Of a DNA stretch of 64,000 nucleotides, positions 38,408 to 64,000 are shown one piece after another. The notes under the pieces were generated by a model, which did no database searches, was not told where the DNA came from, and worked only from the letters and a program-made list of their open reading frames with translations. The DNA is taken from the NCBI GenBank assembly GCA_017461475.1, contig JAFTXX010000033.1, positions 48,786 to 112,785 of the forward strand, read 5' to 3'. The position numbers were made by a program, and so were the translations under genes. Position 1 is the stretch's first letter. Each line of letters opens with the position of its first letter. The DNA comes from Clostridia bacterium. GTDB lineage: Bacteria > Bacillota > Clostridia > Oscillospirales > CAG-272.

Positions 38408-38450
38408 AAAAGCGACGGCTAAAGGTTTCTTCTCATAAGGATATTAAAAG

Positions 38451-38480
38451 CCCGACAGATTTTACAGTCTGTCGGGTCTT
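38451..38480. terminator. Terminator between DUF4358 and the converging unknown gene
   Basis: CCCGACAGA (38451-38459) pairs with TCTGTCGGG (38468-38476). The T-run is better on the minus strand (GGGCTTTTAAT), so it mainly serves the gene at 38516. Confidence 0.8.
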
Positions 38481-38515
38481 CTGTTAGACAAATATGGATT
38501 TGTTGGTTTCATAAT

Positions 38516-38926
38516 TTATAACTCAAAAGTAGAAACACCAGATTCCATAGCATTTTTTACTTTTATTAATGCTTCAATCGCTTCTTCTTTACTTTGATAA
38601 TATGCTATGTTTTCCCAACTGCTAATTCTGGTTTGTATCATCAAAGAAGAACCAGCAACACGAAGTCCACCATAGCAAATAAGTAATTTAGATTTATCAG
38701 GACTAAACACTTTCATATGTTGTTTTGGTCTGACAATAGTTCCATCTTTAAGAACGAACTCAAAATCAGAAAAACTTTCACCTAACGCCTCGGGCATTGC
38801 ATCTTGTATAGCGCAAGCAACTGCAGAATCAACTTGGTCAATTAGAGCATCCTCAATCATATCTTCCAGTCGGGAAGACAATTCATCCATAATGCTGTCT
38901 AAATCAAAGTTTTTGTTTTTTTCCAT
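38516..38926 (-). CDS. Hypothetical protein, function unknown
   Basis: 136 residues, soluble and acidic; not recognised. The N-terminal half is helical and acidic (LDSIMDELSSRLEDMIEDALI), the middle contains FEFVLKDGTIVRPKQHMKVFSP and the C-terminal half a strand-rich YGGLRVAGSSLMIQTRISSWENI followed by a helix. GGAGCGGAGAG precedes the start. Base composition is AT-rich with codon choices unlike the neighbouring housekeeping genes, and the leader contains the nested-palindrome element, suggesting an acquired segment. Confidence 0.6.
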   Translation of the reverse strand: MEKNKNFDLDSIMDELSSRLEDMIEDALIDQVDSAVACAIQDAMPEALGESFSDFEFVLKDGTIVRPKQHMKVFSPDKSKLLICYGGLRVAGSSLMIQTRISSWENIAYYQSKEEAIEALIKVKNAMESGVSTFEL

Positions 38927-38957
38927 AAATCTCTCCGCTCCTTTATCAAATTCTTAT

Positions 38958-39035
38958 TTATCGAGTTGATTTAGAATAAGAACCAGCATCGCATTTGTCT
39001 GTACAAATACCCTCATGGGCTAAGCCCCAATACAT
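38958..39035 (-). CDS. Possible 25-residue Cys-containing peptide
   Basis: A short frame reads MYWGLAHEGICTDKCDAGS then YSKSTR and a stop, lying between the nested-palindrome element and the gene at 38516. It has two Cys and no clear ribosome site. It might be a leader peptide or only part of a repeated leader sequence. Low confidence as a gene. Confidence 0.25.
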   Translation of the reverse strand: MYWGLAHEGICTDKCDAGSYSKSTR

Positions 39036-39066
39036 CTTATCATAACATATTGGTCGATATTATTCA

Positions 39067-39218
39067 AGTTATATTCCGACTTCGTCGGAGTGATATTATT
39101 GCCTTATGGCAATAGTGTTATTGAAACCTTGCGGTTTCAGTGGTATTTTATTCGCCTAAAACTGCCGAAGGCAATACCACTCGGCGTCAGCCGAATATCA
39201 CTGCGAAGCAATATAACT
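39067..39218. repeat. Nested palindrome built of hairpins separated by conserved 9-mers
   Basis: Conserved 9-mers AGTTATATT (39067), AGTGATATT (39089), AGTGTTATT (39114) and AGTGGTATT (39139) alternate with four perfect small hairpins (39076-39088, 39098-39113, 39123-39138, 39163-39173). On the right, AATACCACT (39173), AATATCACT (39194) and AATATAACT (39210) are exact reverse complements of three left 9-mers in mirrored order, again with hairpins between (39182-39193, 39202-39210). The whole folds as one long stem with side arms. Confidence 0.85.
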
Positions 39219-39240
39219 CGACAATTGAAAATTGGCGAAT

Positions 39241-39274
39241 AAAACTGCGAGACTTCCTTATGAGAAGTCTCGCA
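39241..39274 (-). terminator. prs terminator
   Basis: Perfect 11-bp stem TGCGAGACTTC (39246-39256) / GAAGTCTCGCA (39264-39274); on the minus strand the T-run follows at 39244-39241. Downstream TTTTATTCGCC on the minus strand also pairs with 39146-39156 of the nested palindrome. Confidence 0.88.
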
Positions 39275-39295
39275 ATGCCGTCGCTTGATTTATAC

Positions 39296-63820: not shown

Positions 63821-63905
63821 CTATTGCAAATGTTCATTCAAAACCGAATAAATAGGAAACTGCAAGCGATACGAAGCATAGCATGCTTGAAAACTGTGCA
63901 ATACA

Positions 63906-64000
63906 GTTCAAGCCCTCGGTCTATTAGTATCAGTCAGCTGAACACATTACTGTGCTTACACCTCTGACCTATCAAACTTGTAGTCTGCAAGTGACCTTAC
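63906..64000 (-). rRNA. 23S rRNA, 3' end, truncated by window edge
   Basis: The minus strand reads the conserved 3' terminus of bacterial 23S rRNA, including TTTGATAGGTCAGAGGTGTA, then AAGCACAGTAATGTGTTCAG and ACTGATACTAATAGACCGAG followed by GGCTTGAAC. The exact 3' end (about 63906) is estimated by similarity to other 23S ends. The body of the gene lies beyond the window. Confidence 0.92.

Follow-up and report, generated by a model that had tools for sequence, protein, structure and literature searches.

A nested hairpin array in a 64,000-nucleotide stretch of a Clostridia bacterium genome (the whole stretch is hereafter termed the window) is probably one copy of a class of dispersed mobile hairpin arrays located at intrinsic terminators, for which proteins of the PF05635 (S23/IVP) family would act as trans-acting partners in a manner resembling REP/RAYT systems. 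Such arrays are dispersed in multiple copies with sharp ends, are targeted to terminators, display compensatory changes in their hairpin arms, and are linked to IVP genes, with linker sequences that co-vary with the IVP proteins. The linker sequence tracks a widespread protein family of hitherto unassigned role, and the arrays are dispersed across many gut bacteria at the ends of genes. The initial annotation of this region had interpreted it as a nested palindrome under selection on structure; that interpretation is partly supported, and it missed the array's membership in a dispersed family that overlaps the Rfam family Gut-1.

Architecture of the window array

The core array (39067–39218, minus strand) is composed of AGTKATATT-like linkers together with their reverse complements, and most of the gaps are occupied by a small hairpin. 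In plus-strand order it contains four linkers on the left and three on the right. Direct reading placed the left 9-mers AGTTATATT at 39067–39075, AGTGATATT at 39089–39097 and AGTGGTATT at 39139–39147, and their reverse complements, in mirrored order, at 39173–39181 (AATACCACT), 39194–39202 (AATATCACT) and 39210–39218 (AATATAACT); an extra fourth left linker, AGTGTTATT (39114–39122), has no exact partner. The three mirrored pairs are present as the initial annotation described them, and dinucleotide shuffling of the segment, a check on nested complementarity that it had proposed, produced three nested pairs in 0 of 2000 shuffles, two pairs in 1 and one pair in 57. The same annotation regarded every spacer as a perfect hairpin, which holds for six of them (CCGAC(TTC)GTCGG, ATTGCC(TTAT)GGCAAT and GAAACC(TTGC)GGTTTC for the first three, and TGCC(GAA)GGCA, CGGC(GTCA)GCCG and GC(GAA)GC for the others) and fails at the middle of the array (39148–39162), which forms no hairpin. 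The last of those spacers, GCGAAGC (39203–39209, plus strand), was read directly in the window and is what we take to be an extraordinarily stable DNA mini-hairpin. A melting temperature of 88.5 °C for 5'-CGCGAAGCG-3' is given in the part of PMC10527192 consulted here, which also describes DNA mini-hairpins of the C(GNA)G and C(GNNA)G type.

A linker–hairpin chain score of at least 18 was reached once in the 64-kb window, by this array, and in 0 of 20 shuffled windows (best score 16.5); the chain detector is blind to short stems, and its counts do not constitute a census. Folded as RNA, the region 39050–39240 yields −67.4 kcal/mol (z = −6.6), a value matched by 0 of 200 shuffles.

The feature extends beyond 39067–39218 to include an outer closing stem (39146–39244), in which TTTTATTCGCC (39146–39156) pairs with GGCGAATAAAA (39234–39244), and an outer hairpin, H0 (39246–39274, minus strand), of the form TGCGAGACTTC-loop-GAAGTCTCGCA. 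Both arms of the closing stem depart jointly from the TTATATTCGCC/GGCGAATATAA found in many sibling copies. The sequence CTTCTCATAAGGAAG of H0 is also present in L308, an array that precedes an IVP gene in genome G012 and that shares with the window array 73% identity over 196 alignment columns and the same H0 loop. Sibling arrays are best read along the window's minus strand, on which the order is H0, linker–hairpin units, a centre, and units with inverted linkers.

Copies in related genomes

The Rfam Gut-1 model (RF01706) matched the window at 39169–39247 (minus strand) with 48.7 bits over model positions 1–77, below its gathering cut-off of 50 bits, and gave a weak mirror-image match of 24.3 bits in the inverted half (39066–39132, plus strand). 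The window's genome (G000) contains 33 Gut-1 matches, several of them arranged as inverted pairs, and 21 of the 33 exceed the cut-off; the family therefore includes siblings of the window array, and the window copy falls slightly short of the curated score. In the portion of PMC2864571 drawn on here, Gut-1 is presented as a candidate noncoding RNA known solely from human gut metagenomes.

The additional copies that the initial annotation proposed to seek were thus found in the genome itself and also in its relatives, with Gut-1 matches in 28 of 40 family genomes (24 with matches over the cut-off, and a maximum of 59 in one genome). In a phylum sample of 398 genomes, searched with stricter filters, Gut-1 was found in 5, the window's own included, and genome G339 of that sample appears by eye to share this architecture but to use a different linker, ATGAAGT. 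Of the 14 controls, E. coli was also matched by the Gut-1 model, below the cut-off. A subfamily pattern search identified at least 112 stretches in named genomes, and the 80 such loci listed all come from metagenome-assembled genomes (MAGs) titled Clostridia, Oscillospiraceae, Bacillota or similar; the genomes compared throughout are mostly incomplete MAGs. The subfamily-A pattern occurred in 0 viral contigs, the array had no plasmid match, and phage records gave one match (75% over 59% of the query).

Linkers, hairpin arms and loops

Linkers are uniform inside one copy and differ among subfamilies (AGTKATATT, RTGAAAT, GTGAAG, GTGATG, ATGATG and others). Arms were compared in the 80 pattern-fetched loci, using spacers of 9–30 nt bounded by recognized linkers (57/60, 39/40, 33/39 and 31/32; the remainder of the 80 loci were unparsed). 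Hairpins lying outside the search pattern are unbiased by the search, and stems of at least 4 bp were present in 52/57, 34/39, 31/33 and 26/31 of the parsed spacers there, against 5–14% in shuffles and 17–44% after halves of different copies were joined. With 16–20 distinct 5' arms per hairpin position, the arms vary yet remain complementary. A right half could be parsed in 25 of the 80 loci, or 19 after removal of near-duplicates. The stem counts, set against the half-swapped controls, bear out the earlier statement that pairing persists as the arms diverge in sequence; the statement that conservation lies in the linkers is also upheld. Selection on structure, which had been taken to follow from the pattern, agrees with the retained complementarity and is only one of two readings of it, since template switching from arm to arm could likewise keep the arms complementary.

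Loops of the form C(TN1-2C)G occur in 35 of 52 left-half hairpins and C(GN1-2A)G loops in 56 of 88 right-half hairpins; both classes together make up 8 of the 207 other (background) hairpins of the window, where stems of at least 5 bp and loops of 3–4 nt were counted, as opposed to stems of at least 4 bp and loops of 3–6 nt in the arrays. Loops of the C(GNA)G and C(GNNA)G types are exceptionally stable in DNA. Because one strand of each half carries these DNA-stable C(GN1-2A)G loops, the pattern points to folded single-stranded DNA as the form that would be recognized.

Two further observations concern individual loci. Small palindromes have apparently been inserted inside array hairpins in L185, L165, L199, L241 and L182, creating a hairpin within a hairpin, and other repeats of the form GTAGGGGCGA...TCGCCC, with a REP-like look by eye, are found near the arrays of L014, L112 and L115.

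Dispersal and placement at terminators

Near-identical copies with sharp unit ends and unrelated flanks were observed at L017/L023/L031, L019/L022/L024, L132a/b and L134/L135. At orthologous tRNA loci of two same-genus genomes, arrays sit at matching positions but differ in linkers and arms (L032/L134 and L023/L135), and in the orthologous pair L026/L145 the array is conserved, with changes mainly in the loops. Array copies are located directly behind or inside intrinsic terminators. A tRNA or tmRNA 3' end lies no more than 90 nt upstream on the same strand in 17 of the 80 listed pattern loci and on the opposite strand in 0, and in the tRNA-linked loci that we looked at a terminator hairpin separates the tRNA from the array.

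A subtype with GAGGC ends, an element of ~350 bp, was found 28 times, and the 17 copies with an intact right end were used in a flank test. Complementarity of at least 9 nt was present in 12 of 17 own pairs of flanks versus 22 of 272 mismatched pairs; because own flanks are complementary far more often than mismatched ones, we conclude that copies of this subtype sit in terminator loops. Terminal inverted repeats are clear in the GAGGC subtype; none are evident where an array follows an intact tRNA terminator. No consistent target-site duplication was seen by eye, and in L020 the 5' terminator arm is duplicated. Among the genomes compared we observed no excision or insertion event, and found no clean same-site pair of empty and filled loci free of other changes. 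We also considered whether the repeat at the right terminus of the GAGGC subtype is a general element end and rejected this, since it is present in only 3 of 59 family genomes and not in G000.

The island downstream of prs

The window array is located downstream of prs and not in an rRNA gene; separately, the 3' end of a 23S rRNA gene occupies the window's edge (63903–64000). The hairpin beside the array that had first been annotated as the prs terminator turned out to be the array's own outer hairpin, with no U-tract. The arms of an apparently split prs/DUF4358-gene terminator are AAGCGACGGC (38410–38419) and GCCGTCGCTT (39277–39286), which provide 10-nt complementary flanks, lie 857 bp apart and enclose both the array and a 136-aa gene; from the sequence, they look like a single terminator split by an 857-bp island. 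In the same-genus genome G002, prs is followed by an unbroken terminator (AAAAGCGACTC-TTT-GAGTCGCTTTT), and no array was found in the 420 nt 3' of the gene in G002, G003 or G005, the three genomes of the same genus in which prs was matched. In this comparison the 136-aa gene was gained or lost together with the array. A candidate 13-nt inverted repeat near the island ends (38429–39267; CTTCTCATAAGGA at 38429–38441 and TCCTTATGAGAAG at 39255–39267) was read directly.

The 136-aa gene (38516–38926, minus strand), which belongs to no assigned family and has no Pfam match, sits where some sibling arrays carry an IVP gene. A promoter-like sequence, TTGAAT-17-TATGAT (39039–39067, minus strand), starts on the final base of the terminal linker, an arrangement shared with IVP-coupled arrays. 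At least 8 IVP loci have a −35 element that starts on the final linker. The same strict promoter pattern is present no more than 140 nt from the gene start in 24 of the 59 regions upstream of IVP genes and, among pattern-fetched arrays, at the end of 1 of 39. In our reading, the window copy would be an IVP-type array with its promoter that now heads an unrelated 136-aa gene, the IVP gene having been replaced or lost. An argument for IVP deletion based on a segment shared behind the array was abandoned, since that segment proved to be a dispersed repeat in its own right. The 136-aa gene was also considered as the element's own gene and rejected; it is present in only 4 of 98 family genomes, the window's included, and the detector found no array beside its three relatives (one short partial). 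The interval separating the array from the 136-aa gene contains a dispersed repeat distinct from the array (38985–39032, minus strand), in which GGGCTTnGCCC precedes a small ATTTGTA/AAATGC hairpin; this repeat is also found in L308, L297, L099, L190, L226 and L055.

These loci bear on the possibility that the arrays are functional RNAs (as a 3'-UTR or an independent noncoding RNA, as the Gut-1 entry would have it) that stabilize transcripts or aid termination, with IVP binding to RNA. The exclusively same-strand placement of arrays behind tRNAs would fit such a role, as would the strong RNA fold of the window array, the listing of Gut-1 as an sRNA in Rfam, and the transcription and RNase III processing of rRNA intervening sequences (IVS) described in passages of PMC4990558. 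We nevertheless consider it unlikely, given the presence and absence of the array at prs among same-genus species, the sharp-ended dispersal of copies with two mirrored halves, and the preference for DNA-stable loops in one strand of each half. A functional RNA would furthermore be expected to be conserved at orthologous genes; some orthologous loci do have arrays, but with other linkers.

Association with S23/IVP proteins

The S23/IVP family emerged from a survey of 921 ORFs around array loci, in which a four-helix-bundle protein, corresponding to PF05635/TIGR02436, was located beside 10 locus names; these reduce to 7 distinct places because L004/L034 and L074/L075/L079 overlap. An ABC-transporter-like cluster was about level with it (9 locus names, 8 distinct places), and we therefore treated the survey as a lead, and the later co-occurrence, upstream-repeat and linker analyses of PF05635 as its test.

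PF05635 is present in 25 of the same 40 family genomes that were searched for Gut-1 and in 0 of 14 controls. Both IVP and Gut-1 were found in 22 of the 40, Gut-1 only in 6, IVP only in 3 and neither in 9 (Fisher 0.003, several of these MAGs being incomplete), and their counts correlate with a Spearman rho of 0.74; the corresponding values for the Y1 transposase and Gut-1 are 0.72 (Fisher) and 0.11 (rho). A hairpin array lies directly upstream, by eye, in 18 of 27 PF05635 loci, often after a tRNA and its terminator (30 family loci were read and 3 lacked a recognized motif, as did 8 of 30 in the phylum-wide set). Counted without linker labels, the most frequent 6-mer is found at least 6 times upstream of 40 of 59 IVP genes (39 of 54 without five array-fetched loci), compared to 3.0% of 1180 shuffles and 9 of 279 windows of prs loci.

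The more alike two IVPs are, the more alike their arrays tend to be (Mantel 0.47 over 58 loci, 0 of 5000 permutations), and the correlation is 0.31 (again 0 of 5000) when only pairs under 80% IVP identity are used; the set for the upstream-repeat and Mantel analyses excludes L390, L400, L405, L407 and two duplicate rows. On a tree of 23 array-bearing IVPs, 7 linker states, hand-assigned from the commonest 6-mers, require 7 changes, versus at least 11 in 300 label shuffles. Correlation of this kind is partly expected under co-inheritance of whole loci, and is no proof of binding. The match between dispersed arrays and the resident IVP by linker is weak and partial: GTGAAG-type arrays away from IVP genes were found in only 2 of 4 genomes with the cognate IVP, and also in 4 genomes in which the IVPs detected were of other types. 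The window's genome encodes 4 IVPs, 2 of them without a hairpin array. It also contains a GTGAAG-type array (L415, G000:C49:16596-16668), for which no IVP of that linker was found in the 76% complete assembly. A further locus, L400 (G427:C22:84600-86400), consists of an IVP gene with a second, partial array and promoter copy ~160 bp downstream.

Outside the family, IVP genes occur in 47 of 299 phylum-sample genomes. In the phylum loci (L311–L340) the gene is surrounded by simple repeats of short units, and hairpin arrays are not evident; in L313, L316, L318 and L321 the units appear by eye to be direct upstream and inverted downstream of the IVP gene. Solved relatives of IVP include 2rld and, more distantly, 2gsc, and we know of no catalytic site in the family. 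The passages of PMC4990558 drawn on here state no known function for S23p, describe one solved relative as a pentamer, and record an early proposal that the S23p ORF is a mobility component. In the literature, as judged from titles, abstract openings and passages (with subscription papers mostly outside the scope), we found no account linking IVP to dispersed hairpin arrays.

It is quite improbable, in our estimation, that the arrays have spread by homologous recombination, gene conversion or a conventional transposase, with IVP a passenger of the same terminator niche. That H0 is included in some shared segments and absent from others is consistent with such spread, as are the MITE-like terminal inverted repeats of one subtype; a mere passenger, however, sits poorly with an array directly upstream in 18 of 27 PF05635 loci and a −35 element at the last linker in at least 8, or with linkers that track the IVP clade across genera, and the Y1 transposase (the sole transposase family tested) is uncorrelated with the arrays. 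Maintenance of arm complementarity with no selection, through replication template switching that corrects imperfect palindromes in inert, decaying arrays, would account for arms that change in step while linkers stay and for the concentration of changes in the loops of L026/L145, but is highly improbable because switching through a loop would scramble the observed association of loop class with array half (35/52 left and 56/88 right, against 8/207 in the background).

A proposed model for array mobility

Our preferred explanation is that of dispersed mobile arrays with IVP as their partner. IVP, perhaps as a pentamer like the one solved relative, would read the linker repeats, with recognition occurring on folded single-stranded DNA. 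Arrays would then be inserted beside or into terminator hairpins, because the hairpins themselves are the proposed target, much as intervening sequences of 23S rRNA replace hairpin loops; joining might be carried out by a host or other enzyme, and the chemistry of mobility in this model is conjectural.

We more tentatively entertain a wider form of this model, in which S23/IVP proteins in general might serve a very large class of selfish DNA as its sequence-specific partners. Every clade of IVPs would recognize its own unit of 6–8 nt, arranged either as inverted blocks of repeats flanking the gene or as linkers alternating with DNA mini-hairpins, and the resulting complex would insert such elements into hairpin loops, whether of terminators, of tRNA ends or of rRNA. 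The rRNA intervening sequences and Gut-1 could then represent two faces of one mobile system that operates with no classical transposase.

If correct, these proposals would unite an Rfam 'noncoding RNA' with a Pfam family of no known function in one testable system, would supply IVP proteins with a candidate substrate in the form of their own linker, and would provide a general explanation for the arrival of intervening sequences in the hairpin loops of rRNA. The table of linkers and clades predicts which IVP should bind which DNA, and such binding is directly testable.

Comparison with known systems

The initial annotation's view that the feature is neither a CRISPR array nor a REP element of the RAYT type is upheld. 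CRISPR arrays have direct repeats in one orientation and non-palindromic spacers, and the window array has two inverted halves and hairpin spacers. REP/RAYT (TnpA-REP) systems consist of short repeats that form hairpins and are scattered through extragenic DNA, some copies being accompanied by a cognate gene, and a hallmark of REP is a conserved hairpin with GTAG or a similar tetranucleotide at its base. The arrays resemble these systems in their many extragenic copies and in the cognate gene that adjoins some of them. They differ in that the linkers (AGTKATATT in the window, in place of such a tetranucleotide) are conserved while the hairpin arms vary. Membership in REP/RAYT by way of a Y1 domain (PF01797) was rejected: there are 0 matches in G000 (76% complete), the domain is present in 13 of 40 genomes with no association, and 6 of the 8 genomes that exceed 20 Gut-1 matches lack it.

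With regard to MITEs, the window island has the candidate 13-nt inverted repeat near its ends, and the GAGGC subtype has clear, MITE-like terminal inverted repeats. The part of PMC10053308 consulted here notes that PF05635 resembles Avd of diversity-generating retroelements, to which we found a weak NCBIfam match (E = 0.082). The likeness to Gut-1 RNA, with 48.7 bits over the full model in the window and 21 sibling copies in the genome above 50, is accompanied by the difference that Gut-1 here represents one half of an inverted, dispersed array.

The intervening sequences of 23S rRNA take the place of small hairpin loops, an S23p gene is present in some of them, and the Coxiella copy has heptameric repeats just upstream of the S23p start codon (passages of PMC4990558). 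The arrays, by comparison, occupy terminators and tRNA ends, have hairpins between their repeats, and are also dispersed as copies with no gene. The window copy itself is located behind prs rather than within an rRNA gene and is accompanied by a gene other than S23p/IVP, which some siblings do carry. Insertion into a hairpin loop is a feature common to both, as seen in 12 of 17 copies of the GAGGC subtype and in the 10-nt complementary flanks of the window island.
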